The position numbers and the translations under genes were made by a program. From assembly GCA_020444245.1 (NCBI GenBank), contig JAHLLI010000013.1, positions 62,001 to 126,000 on the forward strand: a stretch of 64,000 bases of DNA. The letters run 5' to 3'. The DNA comes from Actinomycetales bacterium (GTDB taxonomy: Bacteria; Actinomycetota; Actinomycetes; Actinomycetales; Cellulomonadaceae). Every line of letters starts with the position of its first letter. Position 1 is the first letter of the stretch. A model generated the notes under the pieces. That model was not told the DNA's origin and made no database searches. It worked only from the letters and a program-made list of their open reading frames with translations. Positions 7,192-49,290 of the stretch are shown here, piece after piece.

Positions 7192-7217
7192 GAACCCGCC
7201 CCGGGAGGGCGGCTCGG

Positions 7218-7817: not shown

Positions 7818-7829
7818 CGACCCTCCTTG

Positions 7830-7862: not shown

Positions 7863-7880
7863 CTACCCCAGGAGGTGCCC

Positions 7881-25961: not shown

Positions 25962-26062
25962 CCCTCCCGCGGGCCGGTCCGAGCCCGTCGGCACGACGCC
26001 GCCGCCGGCCGCTGGGGCCCGAGCGCGCCACCGAGGCGAGACCACATCGTTATCGATCGCCC

Positions 26063-26123
26063 TTGCCCCGGGAGAGACGTGCGGCTAGCGTAACGATCGT
26101 CGAAAGTGAAAGCGAAACTTTCG
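26063..26123 (+). promoter_or_regulatory. Promoter and LacI operator of the rhamnoside operon
   Basis: TTGCCC at 26063-26068 and TAGCGT at 26086-26091 are separated by exactly 17 bp, a plausible -35/-10 pair. Just downstream, CGAAAGTG at 26101 and CGAAACTTTCG at 26113-26123 form the operator; the latter is a perfect 5-bp-arm palindrome. Its position after the start point suits a blocking repressor. Confidence 0.6.
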
Positions 26124-26251
26124 CCGATGCCGCTCGACGAGGACGGCACCGAACGCGAGCCGCGCCGGCCCGGACGGGACCAGTCCTCCGCACCACCCGC
26201 GGGTCAGCCGCACGACAGGTCTCGATGACGAGAACAGAGAGGGCTCACCAC

Positions 26252-27646: not shown

Positions 27647-27655
27647 GCGAGGCAG

Positions 27656-27687
27656 GTGGGGCGCAGCCACCGGTGGCTGCGCCCCAC
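27656..27687 (+). terminator. Perfect 32-bp palindrome between binding protein and permease
   Basis: GTGGGGCGCAGCCACC followed at once by its exact complement: 16-bp arms with no spacer. It starts 9 bp after the binding-protein stop and ends 26 bp before the permease start. In RNA it forms a very stable hairpin, which would protect the binding-protein message and partly stop transcription, giving more binding protein than permease. Confidence 0.8.
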
Positions 27688-27712
27688 TCCCCGCCGTGAC
27701 GAAGGGCATCTG

Positions 27713-29442: not shown

Positions 29443-29452
29443 GGAGACGTCC

Positions 29453-29821
29453 ATGCCCACCGTCCAAGTCGACCTGCGTCGCGAGCTGTTCGCCGAGAAG
29501 GGCACCGCCATCTCGCAGGCGATCCACGAAGGGCTCATCGAGGGCCTCGACATGCAGTCCGACGACCTGTTCCAGGTGTTCCGGCCGCACGACGAGGGCG
29601 AGATCGTGTTCTCTCCCACCTTCGGGGGGGCCGACCGCCGCGACCTGGTGTGGATGAGGATCACGATGGTCCACATGTTCCCGCCGGACGCCAAGCAGCG
29701 GATGTACGCCGCCCTGGTCAAGCACCTGGAGGCGGCCGGCCTGCGTCACGAGGACCTGCTGGTCTCCGTGGTCGAGGTCGGGTTCGACGACTGGTACGCC
29801 GGCGGACCGGTGGGTGAGTGA
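29453..29821 (+). CDS. Tautomerase family protein
   Basis: A 122-residue protein starting Met-Pro, so cleavage of the initiator leaves the N-terminal catalytic Pro of the 4-oxalocrotonate tautomerase superfamily. It has the longer single-chain layout of the tautomerase-2 group: SAEK-type helix (EKGTAISQAIHEGLIEGL), FQVFRPHDEGEIVFSPTFGG and the C-terminal VSVVEVGFDDWYAGG. GGAG lies 7 bp upstream. Its place between a sugar importer and an epimerase suggests a keto-enol or ring-opening step on an imported rhamnoside or its aglycone. This is an unusual context, and the reaction is not known. Confidence 0.9.
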   Translation: MPTVQVDLRRELFAEKGTAISQAIHEGLIEGLDMQSDDLFQVFRPHDEGEIVFSPTFGGADRRDLVWMRITMVHMFPPDAKQRMYAALVKHLEAAGLRHEDLLVSVVEVGFDDWYAGGPVGE

Positions 29822-29822
29822 G

Positions 29823-30857
29823 ATGGCGACGATGAGCGACTACTTCAGCGTGCTGTTCGTCGGTGGCACCGGCGCGATCAGCAACTCGTGCGTCAAGGAG
29901 GCCGTGGCCCAGGGCATGACCGTCACGGTGCTCAACCGCGGCCGGTCCTCGCGGCTGCGCCCCCTGCCCGAGTCCGTCGAGGTGCTGCACGGCGACATCA
30001 CCGACCCGGCGAGCGTCGAGGCGGCGCTCGGCGACCGGCACTTCGACGCCGTGGTGAACTTCCTGTGCTACGGCGCGCAGGACGCCGCGCAGAACGTCGC
30101 GCTGTTCTCCGGGCGCACCGCGCACTACGTGCACATCTCCTCGGCATCGGTGTACCACCGGCCGCTGCCGAAGGGGCCGGTCAGCGAGTCGACCTACGCG
30201 CACAACCCGGAGCACGCCTACATGCGTGACAAGGTCGAGGCGGAGAAAACCTTCCTCGCCGCCTTCGCCGAGCAGGGCTTCCCGGTGACCATCGTCCGGC
30301 CGGCGCACACCTACGACGAGGCGATCGCCCCGCTGGCCGGCGGCTGGGCCGTGATCGACCGGATCGAGCGCGGCGACCCGGTGGTGGTGCACGGCGACGG
30401 CACGTCGCTGTGGACCTACACCCACGCGGCCGACCTGGCCGTCGGGCTGGTCGGGCTGCTGGGGCGGCCGAGCGCGTTCGGCGAGGCGTTCCACATCACC
30501 AGCGACGACGTCCTGAGCTGGAACCAGATCTACCTCGCGATCGGCCACGCGATGGGGGTCGAGCCGAAGATCCTGCACCTCCCGACGGACCTCATCATGC
30601 TGGCCGAGCCGGACTGGTTCTGGTCCGGCCTGCTGGACGGCGACCTGTCGCACAGCGAGGTCTACGACACCACCAAGATCCGCAGCTACGTGCCCGGGTT
30701 CCGCCCGACGCGGTCGTTCGAGCGCGAGATCTACAAGATCCTCGCGTGGCGCAAGGCCCACCCCGACCTCGCCAAGGGCGATCCGGCCGAGGACGCCGTC
30801 TACACCCGGCTGGCCGAGCGGTACGAGCAGGCCAGGGCCGTCTTCGCGGCGCACTGA
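29823..30857 (+). CDS. NAD-dependent epimerase/dehydratase (extended SDR)
   Basis: A 344-residue extended SDR. The nucleotide-binding turn is FVGGTGAISNSCV, and the catalytic pair is YMRDK with an upstream Ser in HISSASVY. The C-terminal half has the extended-SDR substrate region (HGDGTSLWTYTHAADLAVGLVGLLG). It resembles sugar-nucleotide epimerases and CSP41-like proteins. Candidate starts are a GTG at 29814 overlapping the tautomerase stop, ATG 29823 and ATG 29832; I use 29823. Its stop overlaps the GH78 start as TGATG. The substrate is unknown; a free or bound rhamnoside intermediate is possible. Confidence 0.85.
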   Translation: MATMSDYFSVLFVGGTGAISNSCVKEAVAQGMTVTVLNRGRSSRLRPLPESVEVLHGDITDPASVEAALGDRHFDAVVNFLCYGAQDAAQNVALFSGRTAHYVHISSASVYHRPLPKGPVSESTYAHNPEHAYMRDKVEAEKTFLAAFAEQGFPVTIVRPAHTYDEAIAPLAGGWAVIDRIERGDPVVVHGDGTSLWTYTHAADLAVGLVGLLGRPSAFGEAFHITSDDVLSWNQIYLAIGHAMGVEPKILHLPTDLIMLAEPDWFWSGLLDGDLSHSEVYDTTKIRSYVPGFRPTRSFEREIYKILAWRKAHPDLAKGDPAEDAVYTRLAERYEQARAVFAAH

Positions 30858-35084: not shown

Positions 35085-36002
35085 ATGGCGGACGTGTGGG
35101 TGGTCGGTTCGGTCAACGAGGACCTCGTGGTGCACGCCGAGCGCGCGCCCGGACCGGGCGAGACGGTGCTCGGCACGGGTCTGTCCCGCGGGCCGGGCGG
35201 CAAGGGGGCCAACCAGGCCGTCGCCGCCGCCCGGGCGGGTGCGCGGACCCGGATCGTCGCAGCGATCGGCGCGGACGACGCCGGGGCCCGTCAGCGGGCC
35301 GCCCTCGAGGCGGCCGGCGTGCTCGGCGACCGCCTGCTCGTCGTGGCCGGCCAGCCCACCGGCACCGCGCTGATCACCGTGGACGGGCGGGGGGAGAACA
35401 CGATCGTCGTGGTCCCGGGGGCGAACGCGACGCTCGACGCACACGGGGTCGTCGCGGCGCTGAAGGGCCTGCGACCCGGGGACGTCGTCCTGGCCCAGGG
35501 CGAGATCGCCCCGGCGGCCATCGAGGCCGCCGCGCAGGCAGCGTCTGCCGTCGGCGCCGTGACGGTGCTCAACCTCGCCCCGGTCGTCCCCGTCGACCTG
35601 AGCCGGGCGAGGGTCGACGTGCTCGTGGTGAACGAGCACGAGGCGGCGCTCCTCGACCCCGGCGACCGACCGGTCGCCGAGCGGGCGGGACGGCTCGCCG
35701 CGACGGGCGGGGGCACCGTCGTGGTCACGCAGGGCGCACAGGGCGCGTTGCTCGCCGACGCGCACGGCGCGCAGCACCTGCCGGCCTACCCGCCCGACCG
35801 GGTGGCGGACACCACTGGCGCGGGCGACGCGTTCTGCGGAGCCATGGCCGCGGCCCTGGCCGACGGGCTCGCGGTGGCCGACGCCGTGCGGTGGGGCATG
35901 GCCGCGGGGTCGTTGGCCGTGCGAGCCGTGGGAGCACAGGGCGCGGACACCGGCCGCGCCGCCATCCGCAGGGTTCTCGGGGACGACGCGGCGATCCGCT
36001 GA
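35085..36002 (+). CDS. PfkB-family sugar kinase (ribokinase-like)
   Basis: A 305-residue PfkB kinase. N-terminal signature GGKGANQAVAAARAGA near residue 38, and the C-terminal ATP/anion-hole motif DTTGAGDAFCGAMAAAL with catalytic Asp near 255. Ribokinase phosphorylates ribose at O5 and this branch fits best by motif, although no rbs genes adjoin it. GGAAGG lies 8 bp before the ATG. It is divergent from the M16-like gene and convergent with the FGGY kinase of the split-transketolase operon, ending 21 bp from it. It could phosphorylate ribose or another sugar released inside the cell. Confidence 0.9.
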   Translation: MADVWVVGSVNEDLVVHAERAPGPGETVLGTGLSRGPGGKGANQAVAAARAGARTRIVAAIGADDAGARQRAALEAAGVLGDRLLVVAGQPTGTALITVDGRGENTIVVVPGANATLDAHGVVAALKGLRPGDVVLAQGEIAPAAIEAAAQAASAVGAVTVLNLAPVVPVDLSRARVDVLVVNEHEAALLDPGDRPVAERAGRLAATGGGTVVVTQGAQGALLADAHGAQHLPAYPPDRVADTTGAGDAFCGAMAAALADGLAVADAVRWGMAAGSLAVRAVGAQGADTGRAAIRRVLGDDAAIR

Positions 36003-36023: not shown

Positions 36024-37535
36024 TCAGGCCTCCTGCGGGCCCAGCTCTTCCGCACGTAACGCCTGTCCGCGGGACCTCGCGACCGCGGCCGCCCACGCCT
36101 GTCGGGCCGGCCGCGCGTCGGTGCCGCTCGGCTCGACGAGGTGCCCGGGGTCCTCGGCCCAGGCCCCCGCGCCGATCGAGCGGGCACCGAGCAGTGCCGC
36201 GCCGAGCGCCGACGCCTCGGGAGAGTCGGCGACGCGCACGGGCCGGGCCAGCAGGTCGGCCTGGCGCTGCATGAGCAGCGTGCTGGCCGTCGCGCCGCCG
36301 TCCGCGCGCAGCACGTCGATGCGGGCGGACCCGTCGGCCTCGATCGCCTCGACCACGTCGGCGACCTGGTGGGCGACCGCGTCCAGCGCCGCGCGCGCCA
36401 GGTGCTCGCGGCGCGTGCCACCCGTCACGCCGGTGAGCACACCGGACGCCGACCGGTCCCAGTACGGCGCCCCGAGACCGGAGAACGCCGGCACGAACGA
36501 CACGCCACCGGCGTCGTCGACCTTCTCGGCGAGCGCCGTCAGGTAGGCGCCACCCGACACCCCGGCGGGCGCACCGAGCGTCGCGGCCATCCAGTCCAGC
36601 GCCGAGCCGCTGGCAACGATGTTCCCCTCGCGGGCGTACGTGACGGCGTCGGTCTGCCACGCGACGGTCGTGGCGATCCCGTCCGGCGCGCCCAGGGTCG
36701 CCGTCGGGGTCATCACGGACGAGCCCGTGCCGTAGGTGGCCTTGCCGGTGCCGGGCTCGGTGCAGCCGTGCCGGTACAGCGCGGCGTGCGAGTCGGCGAG
36801 CACGGCCAGCACCGGGACCCCGGGCGGCAGGGCCCCCTCGCCGAGGGTGGTGCCGAACCCGGCCGCCGACGCGCGCACCTGCGGCAGGGTGGCCGCCGGC
36901 ACACCGAACAGGTCGAGCAGCTCGGGGTCCCACCTCAGGGTCGCCAGGTCGAGCAGCAGGGTCCGCGAGGCGTTGCCCACCTCGGTGAGGTGCTCGCCGG
37001 TCAGCCGTCGCACCAGCCACGCGTCGACCGTCCCGAGCGCGACGTCCGACGGGTTCGCGCCGCCGGAGGTCGCGGTCTCGAGCGCCGCGCGCATCTTGGG
37101 TGCGGAGAACATCGGGTCCAGGGACAGGCCGGTCCGGTTCCGCACGAGCTCGCCCGCGCCCGGCCGCGCCTCGGCGAGCGCCGCGCACCGGTCGGCGGTC
37201 CGCGCGTCCTGCCAGCCGAGCACCGGGCCCAGCGGTCGCCCTGTCCGCCTGCTCCAGCAGACCACGGACTCACGCTGGTTCGACACCGTGACCCCGAGGA
37301 GCCAGGCGTCCGGCCGACGGCCCAGGCACTCGTCGACCGCCTCGAGGGTCGCCGACCAGAGCTGCTCGGCGTCCTGCTCCACCCAGCCGGGCGCCGGGAA
37401 CGCGATACCCACCGGCCGGGACGCCGCGGCGAGCAGGTCGCCGGTCTCGGGGTCGACCAGCAGGGCCTTGGTGTTCGTCGTGCCCTGGTCGATCGCCAGG
37501 AGCACGCCGACCCGGCGCCCGACCCCGTCCTTCAT
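36024..37535 (-). CDS. FGGY-family sugar kinase, possible D-apulose kinase
   Basis: A 503-residue FGGY kinase with glycerol-kinase-like opening LLAIDQGTTNTKALLVD, substrate segment VTVSNQRESVV with GWQDART, and ATP-site region RADGGATASTLLMQRQADLLARPVRVAD near 390. The ATG overlaps the upstream transketolase stop (ATGA), so it is the last gene of the operon. Its place after a TIM-barrel isomerase and a split transketolase matches the kinase step of D-apiose catabolism (ketose to ketose phosphate, then transketolase cleavage). Glycerol, xylulose or erythrulose kinase activity cannot be excluded from sequence. Confidence 0.88.
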   Translation of the reverse strand: MKDGVGRRVGVLLAIDQGTTNTKALLVDPETGDLLAAASRPVGIAFPAPGWVEQDAEQLWSATLEAVDECLGRRPDAWLLGVTVSNQRESVVCWSRRTGRPLGPVLGWQDARTADRCAALAEARPGAGELVRNRTGLSLDPMFSAPKMRAALETATSGGANPSDVALGTVDAWLVRRLTGEHLTEVGNASRTLLLDLATLRWDPELLDLFGVPAATLPQVRASAAGFGTTLGEGALPPGVPVLAVLADSHAALYRHGCTEPGTGKATYGTGSSVMTPTATLGAPDGIATTVAWQTDAVTYAREGNIVASGSALDWMAATLGAPAGVSGGAYLTALAEKVDDAGGVSFVPAFSGLGAPYWDRSASGVLTGVTGGTRREHLARAALDAVAHQVADVVEAIEADGSARIDVLRADGGATASTLLMQRQADLLARPVRVADSPEASALGAALLGARSIGAGAWAEDPGHLVEPSGTDARPARQAWAAAVARSRGQALRAEELGPQEA

Positions 37536-38494
37536 CGGCCCAGCAGGTCGCGGGCCGCCGCGGCGATCCCCGCCGCGGTGATCCCGAAGTGCTCCAGCAG
37601 CCACTGCACCGACCCGGTGGGCGCGAACGTGTCAGGCACCCCGACGAACCGCATCGGGGCGGGCTGGCGGGTGACCAGCAGCTCGGCCACCGCCCCGCCG
37701 AGGCCCGAGGTGAGCGCCTCCTCGACCGTCACGATCCCGGCGGTCTCGCGCGCGGCCGCGACCAGGGCGGCCTCGTCGAGCGGCTTGACGGTGGGCATCG
37801 ACAGCACCCGCGCGTCGACCCCCTCGGCGGCCAGCACGTCGGCGGCATCCAGGGCACGCGAGACCGCGATGCCGGTCGCGACCAGGGTGACGTCGGCACC
37901 CTCGCGCAGGGTCACGGCCTTGCCCGGCTCGAACCGGTATCCCTCGGGGACCACGTCGGGCACGCCCATCCGGGCGACCCGGACGAACACCGGTCCGTCG
38001 TGGGCGGCGGCCCAGCGCAGGACCTGCGCGGTCTCGGCCGGGTCGCACGGCGCCGCGACGGTCAGCCCGGGGATGGTCCGCAGCCACGCGAGGTCCTCGA
38101 TCGAGTGGTGCGTCGGGCCGAGCTCGCCGTAGGCCATGCCGGGGCTCTGCCCGACGAGCACCATGTGGTGCTGGGAGTAGGCCGCGTCGACCTTGACCTG
38201 CTCCATGGCGCGCGCGGTGAGGAAGCACGACGCCGCGGAGACGAACGGCACCTTGCCGCCGTTGGCAAGGCCGGCCCCGACCCCGACCATGTCCTGCTCG
38301 GCGATGCCGACGTTGACCAACCGGTCCGGGAACCGCTCGGCGAACGGGCCCAGCTTCGACGAGCCCACCGAGTCGTTGACCACGGCGACCACCCGGTCAT
38401 CGGCCTCGGCCAGCTCCACGAGGGTGGCGACCCAGGCGTCGCGGCAGTCGTGCAGCACCCGCTCCGAGGCGCCTGCGTCGATCGTGGCGGTCAT
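37532..38494 (-). CDS. Transketolase, C-terminal subunit
   Basis: A 320-residue separate subunit carrying the transketolase pyrimidine-binding and C-terminal domains: LVNVGIAEQDMVGVGAGLANGG, with the Glu that activates thiamine diphosphate, then GPTHHSIEDLAWLRTIPGLTV and a transketolase C domain from about 195. It overlaps the N-terminal subunit gene and the kinase gene by 4 bp each. Half-size paired transketolases are used in apulose-4-phosphate cleavage and in the sulfoquinovose transketolase pathway, and also occur as generic enzymes. Specificity here is inferred from neighbours. Confidence 0.92.
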   Translation of the reverse strand: MTATIDAGASERVLHDCRDAWVATLVELAEADDRVVAVVNDSVGSSKLGPFAERFPDRLVNVGIAEQDMVGVGAGLANGGKVPFVSAASCFLTARAMEQVKVDAAYSQHHMVLVGQSPGMAYGELGPTHHSIEDLAWLRTIPGLTVAAPCDPAETAQVLRWAAAHDGPVFVRVARMGVPDVVPEGYRFEPGKAVTLREGADVTLVATGIAVSRALDAADVLAAEGVDARVLSMPTVKPLDEAALVAAARETAGIVTVEEALTSGLGGAVAELLVTRQPAPMRFVGVPDTFAPTGSVQWLLEHFGITAAGIAAAARDLLGR

Positions 38495-39408
38495 CGGTTC
38501 TCCAGCTCGGCGAGCGCCTGGGCCACCTGCTCGGCGGACGGCACCTTGTGGTGCCAGGCGACGTTGTCGGACATGAACGAGATCGGGTGTCCCTTGTCGG
38601 TGTGCGCGATCACCGCCGTGGGCCGGCCGGAGGCGGCCGGCACGTCCGCGAACGCGTCGAGCAGTGCCCCGTGGTCGTGCCCGTCCACCTCGACGACGTC
38701 CATCCCGAAGGCGGCCAGCTTGTCGGCCAGCGGCTCGAGATCGTTGGTGTCCGCGACCCTGGCGCCCTGCTGGAGCCGGTTGCGGTCCACGATCACGCAC
38801 AGGTGGGACAGCCGGTGGTTGCCGGCCGTCATGAGGGCCTCCCAGTTGGAGCCCTCCTGCAGCTCCCCGTCGCCCACCACGACGAACGTCCGGCGGGCCG
38901 ACCCGTCGAGCTTGCCCGCGAACGCGGTGCCGACCGCGATCGGCAGCCCGTGCCCGAGCGGCCCCGTGGACGCCTCGACCGCGGCGATCTTGGTCCGCGC
39001 GGGGTGGCCGTTGAGCTGGGACATCGGCTGCATGAACGTGCCGAGCTGCTCGGGCGGCAGGAAGCCCGCCATCGCCAGCGTCGTGTACAGCGCCGCGGCC
39101 GCATGCCCCTTGGACAGGATGAACCGGTCACGGTCCGGGTCGCCGAGCTGGTCGGGCGACACGTTCATCGCCGCGAGGTACAAGGTGACCAGGATGTCGA
39201 TCACCGAGAACTCGCCGCCGATGTGGCCGAGCCCGGCCGCCCGCACCATCTGGATGTCCCGGCGGCGCACCAGCCGCGCTGCCTCGGTGAGGTGGGCGAC
39301 CACCTGGGCGCGCGGCGCCTCGCCCGGCGCCCGGCCGAGCACGGTGAACGCGTCGTCCGGGACCGCCTCGGGGCGGACGTCCGGGACGAGGTCCTCGTCG
39401 ACCGTCAC
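38491..39408 (-). CDS. Transketolase, N-terminal subunit
   Basis: A 305-residue thiamine-diphosphate-binding subunit. The His residues of the active site are in [15 protein letters not shown] and [10 protein letters not shown], and the cofactor motif is [32 protein letters not shown] near residue 180. The GTG start overlaps the isomerase stop (GTGA). Full transketolases are about 650 residues; here the two halves are separate, coupled genes. Works with the product at 37532. The first 40 residues are a less conserved acidic extension. Confidence 0.92.
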
Positions 39409-40397
39409 TCGCCCTCCCCGATGGTGCCGAACAGCGCGTCCTGGACCACCTTCTGGGCGCCGAGCGCGTCCTGGCGGGCCTGGGCGGCCCGGAGCGCGTC
39501 GACGTCCAGGACGTCCAGGGCGCGGTACACGTGCTTGAGGAACCGGATGGACAGCTTGGCGGTCTCGACGGTGTCCTCCCGGAAGGGGAACTGGTCGAGC
39601 TGCCACACGCCCTCCCAGCCGTTCTCGCGCAGCGTGTAGAAGTACTCGAACAGCTCGACCGGGTGGACGGTGCCGACCATCATGTCGTCGTCCCAGCCGC
39701 GCAGGTTGTCGTTGACGTCCATGCCCCACAGCAACCCGTGGTCGATGAGCAGCTGGGCGGCCGCGGCGGGCGACTCCCCGCCGTACAGGGCGTGCCCGAA
39801 GTCCAGCAGCACGCCGACGTTGTCCACGCCCATCGCCTTGATGCCCAGCGCGGTCTTGGCCGCCGAGTCCCAGAACATCTTGTTGCGCGGCTCGCGCGGC
39901 TTGTACTCGATGACGATCTTGATGTCGCTGTTCGCCTGCGCCACTTCGCGCATGCCGTCCACGGCCAGACGCCACTGCTCGCCGTGGTTGACCTGGAACG
40001 GGTAGTCCCAGCCGTCCTGCCCCGGCCAGACCTTCAGGTAGCGCGCCCCCAGGGCGCGCACGACGTCGGCCGCCTCGTTCAGGAACGCGATCGCCTCGGC
40101 GCGCACCGCCGGGTCGGGGTTGGTGAAGGCACCCTTGGAGTACTTGCGCATGTAGATCTCGGGGGTGACCCCGATGGCCTCGAGGCCGTTCTCGGCCAGC
40201 GCGGCCTTCACCTGGTCGACCGTCACACCGTCGGTGAACGGGTAGTTGACGTCGACGAAGGACAGCTCGCCGACGCTGCCCGCCAGCGCGATCTGCTCCA
40301 GCGTCGTCGTGGGCGGGGCGTAGCCGTCCGTGGCGTAGCGGTCCAGGTAGCTGGCGAAGTGCCACAGGCCGGCACCGAACGGCGGGTAGGTCGTCAT
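39405..40397 (-). CDS. TIM-barrel sugar isomerase, possible D-apiose isomerase
   Basis: A 330-residue xylose-isomerase-like TIM-barrel protein. Metal ligands are expected among the Glu and Asp residues in [39 protein letters not shown] and [15 protein letters not shown]. The size and the C-terminal extension fit sugar isomerases acting on unphosphorylated aldoses rather than endonuclease IV. It is followed without gaps by split transketolase and FGGY kinase genes, the set found in D-apiose pathways (aldose to ketose as first step). L-ribulose-, erythrulose- or inosose-type substrates are alternatives. ATG at 40397 with GGAG upstream. Confidence 0.85.
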
Positions 40398-40430
40398 GGT
40401 GTGTCTCTCCTCACTCGGATGGCCCGACGC

Positions 40431-41321
40431 TCAGCCCTTGACGGCCCCGGCGAACGCGCCCTGGACGAAGTAGCGCTGGAACATCAGGTAGACGATGAGC
40501 ACGGGGACGGCCGACATGATGATGAAGGCGTTGAGCGCCCCGTAGTCGGTCGCGTGCTGGGTGTTGAAGCTCTGCACCGCGAGCGGGATGGTCCAGTTGG
40601 CCTGGCTCTGGAGCAGCGTGGTCGCCATGGCGTACTCGTTCCACGTGGCGACGAAGTCGAGGATGAACAGCGCGGCGAGGGCGGGACGCGCCAGCGGCAG
40701 GCAGATCTGCCAGAAGATCCGGAACGTCGAGGCGCCGTCGATCCGCGCCGACTCCTCGAGCTCGTCCGGGATCGCGCGGAAGAACCCGTAGAGCATGAAG
40801 ATCTGGTACGGGATGCCGAACGCGAGGTACGGCAGGATCAGGCCCCACCGCGAGTCGAGCAGGTTCAGCGAGTACATGGTGTTGAACAGCGGCCCGAGGC
40901 CGATCTGGATCGGCACCATCGAGCCGACCGCGAACAGCGCCAGGACCAGCTTGTGGCGCCGGAACCGCAGCCTGCCCAGGGCGAACGCCGCCGCGGCCGA
41001 GAGCAGCAGGCCCAGCGGCACCTTGATCACCGAGATCATCAGGGAGTTGCCTCCCGTGACCCAGAGGTTCCCGGTGTCCACCGCGTCGGCGTAGTTGCCC
41101 CACTCCCACACGGTCGGCAGGTTCCAGGTGGGCAGCTGCGAGACGTCCGCCTTGGACTTGACCGAGGTGAGGAACATGAAGACGAACGGGGTGGCCCAGA
41201 TCAGCGCGGAGACTGCGAGCGCGATCCACAGCCCGACGCCGGGCCAGTCGCGCGGCTTGCGGCGCCGTGGCGCCGGTGGCACCCGCCGGGCGACGGCGGC
41301 CGGAGCGGCGACGGTGGCCAT
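40431..41321 (-). CDS. ABC transporter permease, MalG type (split-transketolase operon)
   Basis: A 296-residue permease with six helices and EAA loop PDELEESARIDGASTFRIFWQICLPL. A Pro/Arg-rich cytoplasmic tail (RRVPPAPRRRKPRDWP) precedes the first helix. The ATG overlaps the preceding permease stop by one base (TGATG). The C-terminus FVQGAFAGAVKG is typical of the MalG branch. No ATPase gene lies in the operon; a shared MsiK-type subunit is likely. Confidence 0.94.
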   Translation of the reverse strand: MATVAAPAAVARRVPPAPRRRKPRDWPGVGLWIALAVSALIWATPFVFMFLTSVKSKADVSQLPTWNLPTVWEWGNYADAVDTGNLWVTGGNSLMISVIKVPLGLLLSAAAAFALGRLRFRRHKLVLALFAVGSMVPIQIGLGPLFNTMYSLNLLDSRWGLILPYLAFGIPYQIFMLYGFFRAIPDELEESARIDGASTFRIFWQICLPLARPALAALFILDFVATWNEYAMATTLLQSQANWTIPLAVQSFNTQHATDYGALNAFIIMSAVPVLIVYLMFQRYFVQGAFAGAVKG

Positions 41322-42268
41322 CAGTGGTCCTCTCCGCGCAGCGCCCAGGCCAGGTAGGGCACGACGAGCGCGAGCGAGATGATCAGCAGCACGGTCGCGA
41401 CAGCGCTGCCCTGACCGAAGGTGTGGTTCTGGAACGACTGCGTCCACGACCACAGCGCCAGGACCTGCGTGGACTGCGCCGGGCCGCCCCCGGTCATGCC
41501 GACCACCAGGTCGAACACCTTCAGCGAGTTGATGATGGTCAGGATGACCACGACGACGAACGTGGGGCGCAGGGCCGGCAACGTCACGTTGCGGAAGATC
41601 TGCAGGCCGTGCGCGCCGTCGATCCTGGCGGCCTCGACCAGCTCGACGGGCACCTGCTGCAGGCCCGCGAGGAACAGCACCATGTTGAACCCGACCGACT
41701 GCCAGATCGCGGCGACGAACACCGAGTACAGCGCGATCTTGGGGTCACCGAGCCACTGGTGGGTCCAGGACTCCAGCCCGATCGCCTTGAGCCCCTGGTT
41801 CACGGCACCGAGCGTCGGGTTGTAGATCCAGCGCCACATCGCCGCGACCGTGATCGACGCGAACACCGCCGGGAGGTAGAAGACGGACCGGAACAGGTTG
41901 CGGCCCAGCAGCTTGCGGTTCAGCCCCAGCGCGAGCAGCAGGCTGAGCATCATCGGGATGGCCAGTGAGAGCACCACCCAGATGAGCGAGTTCTTGAACG
42001 CGGTCCAGAACACCGGGTCGGCGGTGAACGCGCGGACGTAGTTGCGCAGCCCGACCCACACCTGGGGCTCGGTGCGGAACCCGGACCAGTCGTAGAACGA
42101 CAGCCGGACCGCGTCGATCATCGGGTAGACCAGGAAGTACCCGTACAGCAGCCCGGCCGGAACGAGGTACGGCAGCGCCCGGACGAACGGCGAGCGCTTC
42201 GCCCGGGGCCGGGGCGGGTCCGCGCGTCGCGCGTCGCGCCGGGCGACCGGTGGGGTGGTGGTGGTCAT
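41321..42268 (-). CDS. ABC transporter permease, MalF type (split-transketolase operon)
   Basis: A 315-residue permease with six helices (ALPYLVPAGLLYGYFLVYPMIDAVRLSFYDW at the start) and EAA loop VELVEAARIDGAHGLQIFRNVTLPAL. The ATG at 42268 has GGGAGA 5 bp upstream and is preferred to the longer open frame from 42316, which crosses the hairpin. Pairs with the next gene and with the binding protein at 42332. Confidence 0.94.
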   Translation of the reverse strand: MTTTTPPVARRDARRADPPRPRAKRSPFVRALPYLVPAGLLYGYFLVYPMIDAVRLSFYDWSGFRTEPQVWVGLRNYVRAFTADPVFWTAFKNSLIWVVLSLAIPMMLSLLLALGLNRKLLGRNLFRSVFYLPAVFASITVAAMWRWIYNPTLGAVNQGLKAIGLESWTHQWLGDPKIALYSVFVAAIWQSVGFNMVLFLAGLQQVPVELVEAARIDGAHGLQIFRNVTLPALRPTFVVVVILTIINSLKVFDLVVGMTGGGPAQSTQVLALWSWTQSFQNHTFGQGSAVATVLLIISLALVVPYLAWALRGEDH

Positions 42269-42285
42269 GGGTTCTCCCGCTGGGG

Positions 42286-42324
42286 CCGGGGGCGTGACGG
42301 GCGGGAACACCGCCACGCCCCCGG
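42286..42324 (-). terminator. Hairpin between binding protein and permease genes
   Basis: CCGGGGGCGTG and CACGCCCCCGG form perfect 11-bp arms, with an inner GCGG/CCGC pair. It lies between the binding-protein stop and the permease start, mirroring the palindrome at 27656, and probably raises binding-protein mRNA over permease mRNA. Confidence 0.65.
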
Positions 42325-42331
42325 GGCCGGA

Positions 42332-43621
42332 TCAGCTGTTCGCGTCGATGAACTTCTGGAACTCCGCACCGGCGTCGGCAGGAGCGATGTCACCGGTCAG
42401 GACGGAGTTCTGGATGCGCCAGTACTCGGTCGTCTGGTCCAGGGACAGGTTCTGGTCGTTGTTGATGTACAGACCCGTGGCGGCCTTGAAGATCGGCGGC
42501 CACAGCTCGTGGAGCGGGTTGCCGGTCGCCGGGGCGACGTCGACGTTCGGCGACATGGCGGCCCACGCCCCCACGACCTTCTCCTGCTCGGCGGTCGAGG
42601 TGATGAAGTCCAGGAACTTCGCGGCCTCGTCCGGGTGCTTGGACGTCGCGTTGACGTAGTAGGCCTCGCCGAAACCGTAGAGCCGGCCGGTGCCGGTCGG
42701 GAAGGCGAAGATGCCGATGTCGTCCGGGTTCACGCCGTTGTCGGTGAGGTTGGCGTCGAACCAGGTGCCCTCGAGGGCCATCGCGGCCTGACCGGTGTAG
42801 AAGAGCTGGCTGGAGTCGTCGTTGCTGATCCCCATGAAGCCCTGGTTGATGTACTTCTCGCCCCAGGTCTTCAGCGCCGTGAAGGCGTCGGTGACGCAGG
42901 GCTCGGAGTCCCAGCCCTTCTGAGTCGTGTTGAGCGCGTCGGCGACCGTGGACCCGCACTCGGTCTCGATGAGCGAGTCGAGCAGGCGCATGACGTGCCA
43001 GTTCACCGTGCCGCCGAACTGGATCGGGGTGATCCCGGCGGCCACGAGCTTGTCCGCGTCGGCGACCAGCTCGTCGTAGCTCGTCGGGGTACCGGTGATG
43101 CCGGCCTTGGCGAAGAGCGTCTTGTTGTAGTAGATCGCCTCGCCCTGGAGGGTCCACGGGATGCCGTCGTGCTGGCCGTACTGGGTGATGCCGGCGAGCG
43201 CGGCGTCGCTGAACCGGTCGCTCCAGCCGTACTGGTCGTAGTACTTCGTCAGGTCCAGGCTCATGCCGGCGTTGACCAGCTCGCCGCCGAGGCCCGGGCC
43301 CTCCCAGTACCAGTAGATGTCTGGGCCGGCGTCGGTCCCGGCGACCTGCCGCAGCGCGGTCTTGTGGTCGTCGACGGAGCGCTCCTCGTACTTCACGGTG
43401 ATGTCGGGGTTGGCGGCCTCGAAGTCGGAGACCAGGGTCTCCAGGCCCGCCTTCTGGGAGTCCTCCTGGGTGGGGAGCCAGAGCGTGAGGTCGACCTTCT
43501 CGCCCGAGCTGCCCGATCCGCTCGAGCCGGCGTCGCTGGTGCCGCCCGAGCCGCAGCCGGTGACCAGCGCGAGGGCTGCCGTCGCCGAGATCGCCACAGC
43601 GGCTGACCGTGTGTACCGCAT
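42332..43621 (-). CDS. ABC transporter sugar-binding lipoprotein (split-transketolase operon)
   Basis: A 429-residue extracellular binding protein. The signal peptide ends in LVTGC (Cys 23), followed by a Gly/Ser-rich linker and a family-1 sugar-binding domain (VDLTLWLPTQEDSQKAGLETLVSDFEAANPDITVKY). Many Trp residues line the predicted site (WYWEG, WTLQG, WHVMRL). The ATG at 43621 has GGAGG 5 bp upstream; the ATG at 43633 has none. It comes after the nucleoside-hydrolase-like gene and a small hairpin, and feeds the two permeases downstream. The ligand is inferred to be the pentose or pentoside metabolised by the operon. Confidence 0.92.
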   Translation of the reverse strand: MRYTRSAAVAISATAALALVTGCGSGGTSDAGSSGSGSSGEKVDLTLWLPTQEDSQKAGLETLVSDFEAANPDITVKYEERSVDDHKTALRQVAGTDAGPDIYWYWEGPGLGGELVNAGMSLDLTKYYDQYGWSDRFSDAALAGITQYGQHDGIPWTLQGEAIYYNKTLFAKAGITGTPTSYDELVADADKLVAAGITPIQFGGTVNWHVMRLLDSLIETECGSTVADALNTTQKGWDSEPCVTDAFTALKTWGEKYINQGFMGISNDDSSQLFYTGQAAMALEGTWFDANLTDNGVNPDDIGIFAFPTGTGRLYGFGEAYYVNATSKHPDEAAKFLDFITSTAEQEKVVGAWAAMSPNVDVAPATGNPLHELWPPIFKAATGLYINNDQNLSLDQTTEYWRIQNSVLTGDIAPADAGAEFQKFIDANS

Positions 43622-43639
43622 CCTTGCCTCCATCTCGTC

Positions 43640-43661
43640 GGTCCGGCCACTGCGCCGGACC
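43640..43661 (-). terminator. Small intercistronic hairpin before the binding protein
   Basis: GGTCCGGC-CACTGC-GCCGGACC: perfect 8-bp arms and a 6-base loop, between the nucleoside-hydrolase-like gene and the binding-protein gene. It may tune relative expression. Confidence 0.45.
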
Positions 43662-43697
43662 CGGGTGATGCCGTGTCGGGTGCTCCGACGACGGGTG

Positions 43698-44699
43698 TCA
43701 GCCCTCGCCGCGCCAGCGCGCGAAGGCCTCGAGCTTGCCGAACATGTCCTCGAACATCAGCCGGACGTCGAGCCGGGTGTAGACCCGGATCGGCCGCCCG
43801 CCGACGCCCGGCACGTACGCGCCGGAGCCGTCCAGGCGCGGGCACGCCACCACGACGTGGTCGCTGGAGGACGTGTCGGGCTGGAAGTGGCTCTGCAGGG
43901 CGGTGAGCAGGACCAGCGGGGAGTCGCCGAGCGCGTACGTCTCGCTGAACCCGTGCCCGGCGTCCCACATCCGCCGAGCGACGGACCTGACCGCCTCGAG
44001 CAGGTGGCGACCGAGCGCGCCCCGCGTGCCGACCCTGGCGCGCAGCTCGATGTCCGAGACCAGGCACTGGCGGTACATGTTGCGTGGCACCAGCCACAGC
44101 GGCAGGTCGGAGTCGTCGAACACGACCTGGCCGGCGGTCAGGTCGATGTTCAGGTTGTACTCGGGGTTGTCCACGCCGGGTGGCTCCTCGACCGTCCCGG
44201 GGAGCTCGGGGCCACCGATCCAGACGACGGTCAGCCGCCGGGCGATCGCGGGCTCGAGCAGCCAGGCGCTCGCCGTCTCGGTGAGCCCACCGCCGACGCA
44301 CAGGTACAGGGGCCGCGGATCGTCGCGCATCGCCTCGGCGACGATCGCGCGTGCGGCGGGGCTGTCCTGGGGCGTGGTGCGGTCGACGAGCCCGTGCTCG
44401 GCGCCGGGCCAGACCAGGCCGTCGCCGTCCAGCCCCATCACCGCGAACAGCTCGCGCAGGCGATCAGCGGCGTGTGCGGCGCTCTCGGGTCCCGGGTCGA
44501 ACGGGTCACCGGGGGCGAGGTGGGAGGCGACGATGCCGCGGATCTCCACGGCCGGCGACATCAGGTGGTGGACCACCTGGAAGAGGTCGTCCGGGTCGCC
44601 TGCGAAGTCGTTGTCGACGATGACCCGCACCCCGGCCGGGGCGAGGTCCTCGCCGCCGAGCCACGGGAAGGTCCCCGGCGCCCATGTCGGATGTGCCAC
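43698..44699 (-). CDS. Nucleoside-hydrolase-like protein
   Basis: A 333-residue protein with the metal-binding opening of nucleoside hydrolases, VIVDNDFAGDPDDLFQVVHHL (Asp 29, 31, 37 and 38), spaced two residues wider than the classical DxDPGxDD. Further signs: LYLCVGGGLTETASAWL, VVWIGGPEL, NPEYNLNIDLTAGQVVF and a late SPLVLLTAL. The family hydrolyses N-ribofuranosides. As first gene of a pentose-type operon it could instead cleave an imported pentofuranoside; inference. Three GTG codons are possible; the one at 44699 follows GAGGG by 5-6 bp. No signal peptide, so cytoplasmic. Confidence 0.8.
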   Translation of the reverse strand: MAHPTWAPGTFPWLGGEDLAPAGVRVIVDNDFAGDPDDLFQVVHHLMSPAVEIRGIVASHLAPGDPFDPGPESAAHAADRLRELFAVMGLDGDGLVWPGAEHGLVDRTTPQDSPAARAIVAEAMRDDPRPLYLCVGGGLTETASAWLLEPAIARRLTVVWIGGPELPGTVEEPPGVDNPEYNLNIDLTAGQVVFDDSDLPLWLVPRNMYRQCLVSDIELRARVGTRGALGRHLLEAVRSVARRMWDAGHGFSETYALGDSPLVLLTALQSHFQPDTSSSDHVVVACPRLDGSGAYVPGVGGRPIRVYTRLDVRLMFEDMFGKLEAFARWRGEG

Positions 44700-44842: not shown

Positions 44843-45874
44843 GTGCCCGGCACCAGCCCGACACCGCGGGCCCGCGCGAGCATGGCCGACGTCGGACGGC
44901 TCGCCGAGGTCTCGGCGCAGACCGTCTCGCGCTACTTCTCCGGCCGTGGCTACGTGAGCGACGCGACACGGGCGCGTATCGAGGCCGCGGTCGCCGAGCT
45001 CGACTTCCGGCCCAACCTCAACGCGCGAAGCCTGCGCTCGGGCCGCTCCCACACGATCGGCGTCCTCGCGGTCGGGCCGATCAACTACGGCACCGCCGAG
45101 ATCCTGTCCGGGCTCACCAGCCGCGCCCAGGCCACCTCATACGCGATGGCCATCGCCCAGCTCGACCTCGACATGGCCGATCCGGCGAGCCGGGCGCAGA
45201 TCCGGCGGGCGCTGGACGGTCTGCTGTCCGCGACCGTGGACGGCGTCGTGGTCATGACGCCGTACCTGGGTCTCGAGGACCTGTTGGAGGGCCGCCTGGA
45301 GTCGGTACCGGCCGTGACCGTGTCCGGACGACCGCGCCAGGAGCAGGACTCGGTCACGGTGGACTCCCACGCCGCCGGCGTGCTGGGCACCCGCCACCTG
45401 GTCGACCTGGGCCACACCCGGATCCTGCACCTGGCCGGGCCGACCGACCGGAACGAGGCCAACGACCGCGAGCAGGGCTACCGCGAGGTCCTGGCCGAGG
45501 CCGGGCTCGAACCCCTGCCCCTCGTGCGGGGCGACTGGTCCGCGGCGTCCGGCCACGTCGCGGCGATGGCCGTCGCCCCCGGGACCTTCACGGCGGTCGC
45601 CGCCGGGAACGACCAGATGGCCCTCGGCTTCCTGGCCGGGATGCGCGAGCGCGGTCTCGGGTGCCCCCGCGACTTCTCGATCGTCGGGGTGGACGACATG
45701 CCCGACGCGCGCTACTTCGCGCCCGCCCTGTCCACCGTGGAGATGGACTTCGCCCGGCTCGGCAGGGTCGCGATCGACATGCTTCGCCAACGGATCGACT
45801 CCGGCGAGCACGTGCCGCGCACCCGGCTCGAGCCCAGGCTCGTCGTCCGGGACTCGACCGCGCCACCCGGCTGA
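44843..45874 (+). CDS. LacI family transcriptional regulator
   Basis: A 343-residue LacI/GalR regulator. The helix-turn-helix begins SMADVGRLAEVSAQTVSRYFSGRGYVSDATR at residues 13-43, then the hinge and a sugar-binding domain with VSGRPRQEQDSVTVDSHAAG and SIVGVDDMPDARYFAPALSTVEMDF. The GTG start has GAGGAGG 5 bp upstream. It is divergent from the split-transketolase operon, whose -35 box sits in a LacI-type palindrome, and convergent with a SorC-type regulator gene. It should repress the operon until the sugar or its phosphate is present. Confidence 0.92.
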   Translation: MPGTSPTPRARASMADVGRLAEVSAQTVSRYFSGRGYVSDATRARIEAAVAELDFRPNLNARSLRSGRSHTIGVLAVGPINYGTAEILSGLTSRAQATSYAMAIAQLDLDMADPASRAQIRRALDGLLSATVDGVVVMTPYLGLEDLLEGRLESVPAVTVSGRPRQEQDSVTVDSHAAGVLGTRHLVDLGHTRILHLAGPTDRNEANDREQGYREVLAEAGLEPLPLVRGDWSAASGHVAAMAVAPGTFTAVAAGNDQMALGFLAGMRERGLGCPRDFSIVGVDDMPDARYFAPALSTVEMDFARLGRVAIDMLRQRIDSGEHVPRTRLEPRLVVRDSTAPPG

Positions 45875-45883
45875 CCGGGGCGT

Positions 45884-46873
45884 CTAGCTCTCGCCCTCGA
45901 GCAGGCGCTCGGCCTCCTCTGCGTCCGTGATCAGCACGTTCACCCAGCCACCCAGGAGGGCGGCCCGGATCGCGGAGTGCTTGCGCGCCCCACCGGCGAC
46001 CCCGACCCGTCGCGGGATCTGCAGCAGCTGCTCGTAGGAGATCCCGACCACCCGGGCATCGATGTCGGAGCGCACGGGCTCGCCGGCGGCGTCGAAGAAC
46101 CGCTGGCAGATGTCGCCGACGGCGCCCGCCTCGCGCAGCAGCCGCTGGTCGGACTCCGGCAGCGCGTTGCCGCTCTCCTGGAGCAGCGGCGACGGCTCGA
46201 GCGACCCGATGCCGACCAGGACCATGGTGAGCCTGGCCCACAGATCCATCACCTCGCCGATCGCCGGGTCCGCCATGAGCGCGGCCCGGGCCGACGCGCT
46301 GCCGAGCAGGCCCGGAGCGGGCAGGAACACCGGCGCGGCCCCGGTCGCCGCCGCGAGCTGGCCCAGCAGTCGGGTGGCCTGCATCTGGACACGGTGCTCC
46401 CCTACGCCGCCGACCAGCTGGACCACCGCGTCGGCGACCTGCGAGCGCGCCGCGCGCATGCGCTCCACGGTGGCCAGCAGGGTCGCCGACCAGGACGCGA
46501 TGCCGATCGTGTCCCCGCCGGTCAAGGTGGTCTCCAGGTGCACCGCCGTCGCCGCCCCGAGGGCGGCGACCACGTCACGTTCGGAACCCGAGACGTCGAC
46601 CACCACGGCCTCGCCGAGGCCGTACCGCGCCTCGAGCTCCTCCTCGATGTCGGTGTGCACCCCGGGCGGCAGCGACACGGTGGTGCGCACGACGCCGATC
46701 TCCTCGGCACGCTTGAGCAGGCGGGAGACCCGCGGCTGGGAGATGTGCAGCTCGGCCGCGATCTCGCCCTGACGCATCCCCCGCTCGTGGTAGAGCCGCG
46801 CGACCTTGACCATGAGGCGCAGCAGGTCGTCCGACCGCGCGAATGCGGGCGGGCCCGGCGGTTCAGCGCGCAC
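45884..46873 (-). CDS. SorC family sugar-responsive regulator
   Basis: A 329-residue regulator. The N-terminal helix-turn-helix is RLYHERGMRQGEIAAELHISQPRVSRLLKRAEEIGVV (residues 26-62), with the C-terminal sugar-phosphate-binding domain of the SorC/DeoR-C type (DTIGIASWSATLLATVERM, VVQLVGGVG, ARVVGISYEQLLQIPRRVGVAGGARKHSAIRAALLGG). The start is a GTG at 46873. The 22-bp element in its own promoter recurs over the -10 box of the split-transketolase operon, so it probably senses a phosphorylated intermediate of that pathway and controls the operon, GH3 and itself. Confidence 0.92.
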   Translation of the reverse strand: MRAEPPGPPAFARSDDLLRLMVKVARLYHERGMRQGEIAAELHISQPRVSRLLKRAEEIGVVRTTVSLPPGVHTDIEEELEARYGLGEAVVVDVSGSERDVVAALGAATAVHLETTLTGGDTIGIASWSATLLATVERMRAARSQVADAVVQLVGGVGEHRVQMQATRLLGQLAAATGAAPVFLPAPGLLGSASARAALMADPAIGEVMDLWARLTMVLVGIGSLEPSPLLQESGNALPESDQRLLREAGAVGDICQRFFDAAGEPVRSDIDARVVGISYEQLLQIPRRVGVAGGARKHSAIRAALLGGWVNVLITDAEEAERLLEGES

Positions 46874-46927: not shown

Positions 46928-46949
46928 ATTTCGATTCGTTGCTGAATCT
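46928..46949. promoter_or_regulatory. SorC-type element between the SorC gene and GH3
   Basis: Same 22-bp pattern as at 44722-44743 (18 of 22 identical). It contains the inverted pair GATTC-6 bases-GAATC and lies 55 bp before the SorC start and 83 bp before the GH3 start. A TAGCAT -10-like hexamer abuts it on the plus strand. Confidence 0.7.
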
Positions 46950-47031
46950 ATCGGACGAACGGCGTCGCGTCGCGGACTGCGAGCTCCGACCGCGCGACCC
47001 GCCCCGCACCGCCGCGAGAAGGAGTGCGCCC

Positions 47032-49290
47032 ATGGCGTCGCACGAGACCACGACCCCCGTCGCCGACCTCACCCTGGAGGAGAAGGCAGCACTGGTCAGC
47101 GGACGCGACTTCTGGCGGACGGCGCAGCTGGAAGGCCACGGGCTCGGCTCGATCATGCTCACCGACGGCCCCCACGGCCTGCGGAAGCAGGTGGCCGACC
47201 CCGACCGGATCGGCCTGGAAGCAGCGGTCCCTGCGACGTGCTTCCCGACCGCCGCGACGTTGGGTTCGACCTGGGACGTCGACCTGGTGCGCCGGGTCGG
47301 CGAGGCGCTCGGCGCGCAGACCCGCGCGAACCAGGTGTCGGTGCTGCTGGGCCCGGGCGTGAACATCAAGCGGTCGCCGCTGTGCGGACGCAACTTCGAG
47401 TACGTCTCGGAGGACCCGTACCTGTCCGGGCGGATCGGCGCGGGTCTGGTCGCCGGCATCCAGTCGGCCGGTGTGGGGGCCTCGCTCAAGCACTTCGCGG
47501 CCAACAACCAGGAGACCGACCGGATGCGGGTGTCGGCGGAGGTGGACGAGCGCACGCTGCGCGAGATCTACCTGCCGGCCTTCGAGCACGTCGTGACGAC
47601 CACCCAGCCGTGGACCGTGATGTGCTCGTACAACCGGATCAACGGCGTGCACGCCTCACGGGACCCGTGGCTGCTGACCACCGTGCTGCGCGAGGAGTGG
47701 GGCCTCGAGGGCCTGGTGGTCTCCGACTGGGGCGCCGTGGTCGACGCCCCCGACTCGGTCGCCGCCGGCCTGGACCTGGAGATGCCCGGCACCGCCGGCC
47801 GGTCGGCTGCGGCGATCGTCGCGGCGGTCCGCAGCGGCCGGCTGGCCGAGGCGGACCTCGACACCGCCGCCACACGCGTCCTGGCCCTGGTGGCACGCGC
47901 GCAACCGGCGCTCGCCGAGCCCGGGACCGCCGACCTCGACGCGCACCACGTGCTCGCCCGGGAGGCCGCAGCCGCGGGCAGCGTCCTGCTGGCGAACACA
48001 CCCGTGGACGGGGCGCCGCTCCTGCCGCTGGCCCCAGGCGCCCGGCTCGCCGTGGTGGGCGAGCTCGCACGGAGCCCCCGCTACCAGGGCGCCGGCTCGT
48101 CGCAGGTCACGCCGACGCAGGTGGACGACCTGCTCACCGCGCTCGGCGAGCGCCTCGGGGCGCACGTGCCGTTCGCGCCGGGGTACACCGTCGACGGCGG
48201 CGACGCCGACGCCGCGCTGCGCGAGGACGCGGCCCGGGTGGCCTCCGGAGCGGACGTCGTCGTGGTGTTCCTGGGGCTGCCCGCCGCGGCCGAGTCCGAG
48301 GGCTTCGACCGGACCCACCTCGACCTGCCCGCGAACCAGGTCGCCGCCCTGGAGGCGGTGGCCGCCGCGAACCCGCGGGTCGTCGTGGTGCTGGCCAACG
48401 GTGGCGTCGTGACGATGCCGTGGGCGCACCACGCGCCGGCGATCCTGGAGACCTGGCTGGGTGGGCAGGCCGCCGGCTCGGCGATCGCCGACGTGCTGCT
48501 CGGCCTGCGCGAGCCCGGCGGGCGCCTCGCCGAGACCATCCCGCACCGCCTGGTGGACACCCCGTCGTTCGGCGCCTTTCCCGGCGATCCCGGCCGGCCG
48601 GGGACAGTCCGGTACGGCGAGGGCGTGCTGGTCGGGTACCGGTGGTACGACACCCGCGAGATGGATGTGGCGTTCCCGTTCGGCCACGGGCTGGGCTACA
48701 CGAGGTTCGAGTTCGCCTCTCCCACCGCGACGGTCACCGGCGCGGGGCGCGACGTCGAGGTACGGGTGGCCGTGCGGGTCACCAACACCGGCACGCGGAC
48801 GGGCAGCGAGGTCGTCCAGGTGTACGTCGCCGACCCCGAGTCGCAGGTGACGCGCCCCACGCGCGAGCTGAAGGGCTTCGCCAAGGTCCGGCTCGAGCCG
48901 GGCGAGTCCCGGGAGGTCACCGTCACGCTCGGCGCACGGGACCTGTCGTACTGGCACCCGGGCCTGCGCCGCTGGGTGGTCGAGGGCGGCGCATTCCGGA
49001 TCGAGGTCGGGGCCAGCTCGCGCGACCTCCGCGGCAGCGTCGAGGTCCAGGTCGACGGGGAGCCGCTGTGGCTGCCGCTCGACGAGGACTCCACGCTCGG
49101 CGAGTGGCGGGTGCACCCGGTGGGTGGCCCGCTGGTCGAGCGCGCGCTGGCCGCCGGCCCCGCCGTGGACGCGGGCCTGGCCGCCATGATCGACGAGATG
49201 CCGATGCGGCTGCTCGCGTCCTTCGGGATCGGCGGGTTCGACCCGCAGTCCCTGGCGGCGCTCGTGGCCGAGGCGCAGGCGGCTGGCTAG
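47032..49290 (+). CDS. Glycoside hydrolase family 3 beta-glycosidase
   Basis: A 752-residue GH3 enzyme. The TIM-barrel domain holds IMLTDGPHGLRKQ, GRNFEYVSEDPYLSGRIGAG, LKHFAANNQE and the nucleophile Asp in LVVSDWGAVVDA near residue 233. The alpha/beta sandwich follows from about 300 and a C-terminal fibronectin-III-like domain from about 560. No signal peptide, so cytoplasmic. AAGGAG lies 8 bp before the ATG. The shared 22-bp element links it to the split-transketolase operon; it may release the pentose used there. GH3 members include beta-glucosidases, xylosidases and arabinosidases, so substrate is open. Its stop shares CTAG with the convergent GNAT gene. Confidence 0.94.
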   Translation: MASHETTTPVADLTLEEKAALVSGRDFWRTAQLEGHGLGSIMLTDGPHGLRKQVADPDRIGLEAAVPATCFPTAATLGSTWDVDLVRRVGEALGAQTRANQVSVLLGPGVNIKRSPLCGRNFEYVSEDPYLSGRIGAGLVAGIQSAGVGASLKHFAANNQETDRMRVSAEVDERTLREIYLPAFEHVVTTTQPWTVMCSYNRINGVHASRDPWLLTTVLREEWGLEGLVVSDWGAVVDAPDSVAAGLDLEMPGTAGRSAAAIVAAVRSGRLAEADLDTAATRVLALVARAQPALAEPGTADLDAHHVLAREAAAAGSVLLANTPVDGAPLLPLAPGARLAVVGELARSPRYQGAGSSQVTPTQVDDLLTALGERLGAHVPFAPGYTVDGGDADAALREDAARVASGADVVVVFLGLPAAAESEGFDRTHLDLPANQVAALEAVAAANPRVVVVLANGGVVTMPWAHHAPAILETWLGGQAAGSAIADVLLGLREPGGRLAETIPHRLVDTPSFGAFPGDPGRPGTVRYGEGVLVGYRWYDTREMDVAFPFGHGLGYTRFEFASPTATVTGAGRDVEVRVAVRVTNTGTRTGSEVVQVYVADPESQVTRPTRELKGFAKVRLEPGESREVTVTLGARDLSYWHPGLRRWVVEGGAFRIEVGASSRDLRGSVEVQVDGEPLWLPLDEDSTLGEWRVHPVGGPLVERALAAGPAVDAGLAAMIDEMPMRLLASFGIGGFDPQSLAALVAEAQAAG

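Follow-up and report, generated by a model that had tools for sequence, protein, structure and literature searches.

A candidate D-apiose operon in an Actinomycetales bacterium, with a nucleoside-hydrolase-fold protein as putative apioside hydrolase

The window analysed here is a stretch of 64,000 nucleotides (contig JAHLLI010000013.1, positions 62,001 to 126,000) from an Actinomycetales bacterium of the Cellulomonadaceae, whose assembly (GCA_020444245.1) has 4.41 Mb and is 99.41% complete. Positions 36024-44699 of the window hold one minus-strand series of eight tightly packed open reading frames (ORFs), all of them open, in the order NH (nucleoside-hydrolase-fold protein), SBP (solute-binding protein), PM1 and PM2 (permeases), ISO (isomerase), TKA and TKB (the two halves of a transketolase) and KIN (FGGY kinase). 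The intergenic gaps from NH to KIN are 64, 15, -1, 33, -4, -4 and -4 bases. An earlier note on this DNA, the sequence-only reading, had described a single minus-strand run of overlapping genes with an NH-like protein, an ABC importer, an isomerase-like protein, a split transketolase and an FGGY kinase; the ORFs, their order and Pfam, which bears out every gene label of the run, agree with it. No ATPase gene is present in the run.

Relatives of ISO were collected in one scan of species genomes, which found 336, and the best 80 were used. Among these, the nearest named relative is from Actinotalea (90%), and the protein of Pectobacterium carotovorum DSM 30168 (locus L062) is 69% identical over 328 residues. 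The best PDB sequence, 3ktc, is named a xylose isomerase and is presumably a Pectobacterium protein; it scores 530 bits, and the next match 67 bits. NCBIfam gave ISO superfamily matches only, with no model that names this particular isomerase. Seven Pectobacterium loci are among the best 80 (L060, L062, L063, L065, L066, L067 and L072), and in all seven TKA, TKB, KIN and ISO are consecutive, with a CUT2-type importer before the four genes and a SorC-type regulator after them. An orthologue of the apiose-cluster isomerase is present in the window, where isomerase, kinase and both half-transketolases are likewise adjacent.

Carter et al. 2018 reportedly described in Pectobacterium a D-apiose transketolase pathway comprising apsI, a kinase and two transketolase subunits. 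We presume the functions of ApsI, the kinase and AptAB, save those given in PMC13001218 or in NCBIfam names. According to that source, P. carotovorum WPP14 provides the reference apiose cluster, with apsI as the isomerase gene, and grew on D-apiose as a positive control; the corresponding genes of the Escherichia coli cluster are named aplK, aptA and aptB (PMC13001218). The same source reports that E. coli can grow on apiose with no apsI, implying that the isomerase is not the sole way into the pathway (PMC13001218). Our comparison strain L062 is of the same species as WPP14 and a different strain. At 22 of 33 enterobacterial isomerase loci TKA is not in the stretch, some stretches ending at contig ends, and apulose may have another fate in such loci.

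KIN is 45% identical to the L062 kinase, and in the tree it falls with the kinases of the isomerase loci, including those of Pectobacterium, while the GlpK and eight other FGGY kinases of its own genome lie outside. TKA and TKB are 45% and 39% identical to the L062 pair. On sequence, the half-transketolases by themselves do not discriminate, since they match the Pectobacterium pair no better than a second split transketolase encoded elsewhere in their own genome; TKA and TKB are therefore assigned by linkage. The second pair lies in L198 (G000:C7:24000-41000) at about 6600-8444 on the minus strand.

A further pointer to apiose, independent of these comparisons, comes from the GH140 apiosidase family (PF13204). 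In locus L153, from a genome of the order, one run comprises an Apiosidase PF13204 protein (214.6 bits), SBP, PM1, PM2, NH, TKA, TKB, KIN, ISO and SorC, and genomes G013 and G063 have a PF13204 match some 2.2 kb away from the isomerase gene. Taken together, the identity of ISO to the Pectobacterium isomerase, the kinase tree, the adjacency of the four genes in all seven Pectobacterium loci and the GH140 gene in a relative's operon uphold the apiose inference of the sequence-only reading. They support the view of the catabolic core as a known pathway, here in a variant layout, and make it very probable that the operon serves D-apiose utilisation of the transketolase type.

The sequence-only reading had left the NH-like gene without a role. 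The window's genome has no PF01156 match other than NH. To follow its distribution, 297 genomes of the order were searched with NH, ISO and a protein resembling the D-apionate lactonase ApnL; the isomerase and the ApnL-like protein served as markers, one for each apiose pathway. NH was found in 41 genomes, ISO in 24 and the ApnL-like protein in 24. NH and ISO occur together in 18 genomes (expected 3.3, hypergeometric p 6e-13) and NH and the ApnL-like protein in 15 (expected 3.3, p 6e-9), both p values overstating the association, as the genomes are related. Of the 45 genomes with at least one marker, 30 have NH, compared with 11 of the 252 others. Within 20 kb, a limit chosen after the distances had been seen, NH accompanies ISO in 14 genomes of six genera and the ApnL-like protein in nine genomes of five genera; altogether, 23 genomes from 11 genera have a marker this close to NH, the genus counts being the safer measure, and no genome is in both lists. 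A sample of 346 genomes from the phylum, too sparse for a test of the link, has NH in seven genomes (three strong), ISO in five and the ApnL-like protein in two, NH and the latter being together in G069 and G038. Here, NH stands beside apiose genes only in Actinomycetota. In L159, L160 and L163, two NH genes of different clades lie in tandem next to a CUT1-type importer, which might reflect two linkages or substrates.

The second set of marker loci is of a different kind. The ApnL-like protein (L161:7041-8981) has one NCBIfam match, D-apionate lactonase ApnL, at 201 bits, below the cut-off of 750, and no Pfam family. Beside it, in varying subsets, are genes for an SDR, a PGDH_C protein, an AP_endonuc_2 barrel, TIM, RpiB and a DAK kinase; no NCBIfam model matched the AP_endonuc_2 protein. 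We take these loci to resemble the oxidative apiose route, which runs via apionate to erythrulose. The transketolase and oxidative routes are not known to have anything but apiose in common.

A structural model of NH was built from eight sequences (mean pLDDT 78.8). All 50 PDB matches listed by Foldseek are nucleoside or riboside hydrolases, the best being 2mas_A (E 7.6e-13, TM 0.67/0.70), which indicates the nucleoside hydrolase fold. The eight-sequence profile found 13 matches in the PDB, the best at 41.9 bits, all of them of the nucleoside hydrolase family by name except those with gene-label names. For the residue alignment, 63 NHs were found, three short ones were left out and 60 were aligned. 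Residue numbers and roles follow the Crithidia enzyme, whose His241 we take to be a leaving-group residue that is not universal. All 60 proteins retain the residues equivalent to D10, D14, E166 and N168, and 59 retain the one equivalent to D242, while the position of His241 is Gly in 58, as in the window protein, and a gap in two. The window NH carries the equivalents of the Ca-site residues D10, D14, D15 and D242; D10 is catalytic in the T. vivax enzyme (PMC12648331).

D15 is kept in 46 of the 60 proteins, including all 36 NHs from ISO, oxidative or transketolase stretches, and its 14 losses are all among the 24 NHs from stretches with neither pathway; in these counts L087 and L181 are probably one genome. 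Five NH homologues without D15 (L165, L166, L168, L169 and L170) lie near GH43 or GH3 genes without apiose markers, and L169 and L170 additionally contain genes from a glucuronate-isomerase-like cluster. In a tree with 14 canonical enzymes, drawn from 48 matches in 39 relatives, the NHs form a clade apart. In a tree of NHs, those of ISO loci and oxidative loci interleave, in two clades.

The GH140 family itself is absent from the window's genome, as judged by PF13204. In 27 further marker genomes (22 with linked NH and five with ISO and no NH), PF13204 matched in 11, six of them above 200 bits and five reaching 52-70 bits at best; none of the five ISO genomes without NH had a match. Strong matches (>200 bits) were found in six of the nine linked genomes whose linked NH is of the other clade only, and in none of the 14 that have a window-clade NH. 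This grouping was made post hoc; both clades are represented in four of those 14 genomes, and G134, one of the nine, also has an unlinked NH that branches on the same side of the tree as the window's NH.

CUT1 importers typically carry oligosaccharides or glycosides, and CUT2 importers monosaccharides. L084 has both, a CUT2 importer with ISO, TKA and TKB, followed by LacI, NH, SBP, PM1 and PM2; this layout fits a free-apiose module joined to an apioside module. In the order sample, the L008-type CUT2 binding protein is present in none of 14 NH-linked isomerase stretches and in four of six NH-less ones (p 0.003), the sixth of the latter, G070, being taken from L086 as a presumed match, and one side of the isomerase being shorter in the NH-linked stretches (994 to 6936 bases in 13 versus 8332 to 8963 in five NH-less). 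At the edge of L146 lies a gene associated with CUT2 (cluster C2x). Among the 47 non-enterobacterial loci of the best 80, one of them (L028) of unstated taxon, four have NH and CUT2, five NH only, 25 CUT2 only and 13 neither (p 0.27), nine of these 13 being shorter than 20 kb. Importer type as a separator of NH and NH-less loci was dropped because of the uneven stretch lengths, L146 and the p of 0.27. The apiosidase reading therefore does not depend on importer type.

From the observed gene content, isomerase and kinase relationships, linkage, fold and residue conservation, we infer every reaction and substrate that follows. The CUT1 importer would take in small apiose-containing glycosides. 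NH has no evident export signal, its N-terminus being not signal-like by eye and by a simple hydrophobicity count (0.8 versus 2.3 for its SBP), and could cleave the apiofuranosyl bond inside the cell, freeing D-apiose. In the proposed chemistry, the conserved Asp residues would hold a Ca2+ that chelates the furanose at its cis-2,3-diol, in the same way as ribose is chelated by nucleoside hydrolases. The apiosyl diol of borate esters has cis geometry. Apiosyl residues make such esters in rhamnogalacturonan II (RG-II), according to PMC4404806. Like ribose, apiose could therefore be a Ca2+ chelator. The ApsI-type isomerase would then convert D-apiose to D-apulose and the FGGY kinase D-apulose to apulose 4-phosphate, from which the two-subunit transketolase may move a two-carbon unit onto glyceraldehyde 3-phosphate to yield dihydroxyacetone phosphate and xylulose 5-phosphate. 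The isomerase, kinase and transketolase steps are those of the established pathway. We regard this whole scheme, with CUT1 apioside import and apiose release by NH, as rather probable. For NH taken singly, the chances that it is an intracellular apioside hydrolase seem evenly balanced. The broader proposal is that the NH clade is a new O-glycosidase family, an analogue of GH140 that releases D-apiose from imported apiosides by Ca2+/cis-diol chemistry and feeds both pathways; we put it forward tentatively, just short of an even chance.

Several observations weigh against these proposals. Among the 41 NH genomes of the order, 11 have neither marker and 18 have none within 20 kb; in the phylum sample NH and ISO are together only in the window's own genome, and NH is near the isomerase in none of the 33 enterobacterial loci. 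His241, absent from the NHs, is also missing in four of the 14 canonical enzymes (present in ten). That NH simply replaces GH140 is ruled out by L153, where both stand side by side. With TKA and TKB, the halves of the genome's second split transketolase share 44% and 41% identity. In the oxidative-type loci, the RpiB-like protein is best matched as an actinobacterial ribose-5-phosphate isomerase (198 bits, above the cut-off) and reaches only 146.5 bits, below the cut-off, with D-erythrulose-4-phosphate isomerase, and the labels OiaC-like and ApnO-like are presumptive. Nucleoside hydrolases depend on the 5'-OH (PMC12648331). Apiose carries no 5'-OH-like group at C4, but NH retains the E166 equivalent.

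In a rival reading, the operon does serve apiose, and NH acts instead on a nucleoside, another ribofuranoside or another pentofuranoside of the same plant material. We consider this quite possible, though somewhat below even odds: the fold is that of nucleoside hydrolases with the E166 and N168 equivalents kept, and of the 18 NH genomes with no marker within 20 kb, some have NH beside GH43, GH3 or GH78 genes. Against it, NH is linked to two apiose routes across 11 genera, its leaving-group His is replaced, its clade is apart from the canonical enzymes, and a search of the loci with nine canonical enzymes as queries gave no ORF match at E 1e-15. That the operon instead degrades a different aldose or branched sugar, for instance one related to xylose, rhamnose or hamamelose, by means of a glycerol-kinase-type kinase is improbable. 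ISO does belong to the xylose/rhamnose isomerase superfamily, and KIN scores 412 bits against the GlpK model; the latter is below the cut-off of 590, as is the score of the Pectobacterium kinase (470, also below the cut-offs), while the genome's own GlpK reaches 733 bits. Grouping of isomerase and kinase with xylose, erythrulose or inositol enzymes would, by the sequence-only reading's own criterion, have spoken against apiose. In a comparison covering xylose and rhamnose isomerases and the genome's own FGGY kinases, only 67-80 bits connect ISO to xylose and rhamnose isomerases, as opposed to its close identity with the Pectobacterium protein, KIN groups with the Pectobacterium kinases rather than with its own GlpK, rhamnulokinase-like or XylB-like kinases, and GH140 occurs in the isomerase loci of relatives; the apiose assignment therefore stands. 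A sulfoquinovose-type transketolase route presumably shares the split transketolase subunits, but the same run holds an FGGY kinase and an ApsI-type isomerase, and no sulfo-sugar family is among its Pfam and NCBIfam matches, in a comparison that did not contain SqwGH sequences. This route is hardly credible here.

To our knowledge, the nucleoside hydrolase fold is known only for splitting nucleosides and ribosides, and our literature search, with most subscription papers outside its coverage, returned no nucleoside hydrolase reported to act on apiose. If the apioside hydrolase reading is correct, this fold would be doing glycosidase work on a rare branched sugar, and proteins now annotated as nucleoside hydrolases would gain a function. 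It would also explain the release of apiose by bacteria without GH140, and offer a tool to cut apiose from flavonoid apiosides and pectin fragments.

The features of the operon and its surroundings are collected in Table 1. Homologues of the LacI-family regulator REG adjoin NH in L084, L146 and L163, and those of SORC are present in 47 of the 80 isomerase loci. The sequence-only reading had linked the operon to RG-II through a GH78 rhamnosidase; the gene is indeed present in the window, and its link to RG-II is one of proximity alone. It belongs to a second sugar operon, which also has a LacI-like regulator, judged by translation only. Genes of the same cluster as the GH3 glycosidase lie near the operon in L008 and L144.

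Table 1. Features of the apiose operon and of its neighbourhood in the window
Feature	Position	Strand	Evidence or remark
NH, nucleoside-hydrolase-fold protein, GTG start	43698..44699	-	Pfam IU_nuc_hydro 45.1 bits (cut-off 34.2)
SBP, CUT1-type solute-binding protein, hydrophobic N-terminus	42332..43633	-	SBP_bac_1 141.3 bits
PM1, CUT1-type permease	41321..42316	-	BPD_transp_1 68.6 bits
PM2, CUT1-type permease, ATG start at 41321	40431..41321	-	BPD_transp_1 82.7 bits
ISO, putative D-apiose isomerase (ApsI type)	39405..40397	-	AP_endonuc_2; 69% to P. carotovorum L062
TKA, transketolase N half, AptA-like by linkage	38491..39408	-	Transketolase_N 129.8 bits
TKB, transketolase C half, AptB-like by linkage	37532..38494	-	Transket_pyr + Transketolase_C
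KIN, FGGY kinase, apulose-kinase (AplK) type	36024..37535	-	FGGY_N + FGGY_C; tree; 45% to L062
REG, divergent LacI-family regulator	44843..45874	+	LacI + Peripla_BP_3
SORC, SorC-type sugar-binding regulator	45884..46873	-	PF04198 199.7 bits
GH3 glycosidase	46939-49290	+	after SorC regulator
PfkB-family kinase	35085-36002	+	188 bits; converges on operon end, outside run
Second sugar operon	24954-33484	+	CUT1-type SBP, two permeases, tautomerase, NAD-dependent epimerase, GH78 rhamnosidase
GH78 rhamnosidase	30857-33484	+	separate run from apiose operon

Compared with known systems, the window resembles the Pectobacterium apiose cluster in having the isomerase, FGGY kinase and two half-transketolases adjacent and a SorC-type regulator beside them. 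It differs in that its run has a CUT1-type importer and NH, whereas a CUT2-type importer takes that place in Pectobacterium L062 and in L008, the closest relative (Peripla_BP_4, BPD_transp_2 and a double ABC_tran). Loci that look like the oxidative D-apiose/apionate pathway (ApnL, ApnO and OiaC, as we presume) carry homologues of the same NH, and some also of the window's CUT1 importer; unlike the window, they have no isomerase, and genes for lactonase-like, PGDH_C, TIM-barrel, RpiB, TIM and DAK proteins instead. With the IUNH family (PF01156), NH shares the fold, the Ca-site Asp residues and the E166 and N168 equivalents, but it falls in a separate clade, with an insertion in the Asp motif, Gly for His241 and, in the rows shown, no Asn at the place of N160. 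The GH140 apiosidases, finally, would catalyse the same reaction as is proposed for NH and share an operon with it in L153, although they belong to a different Pfam family.

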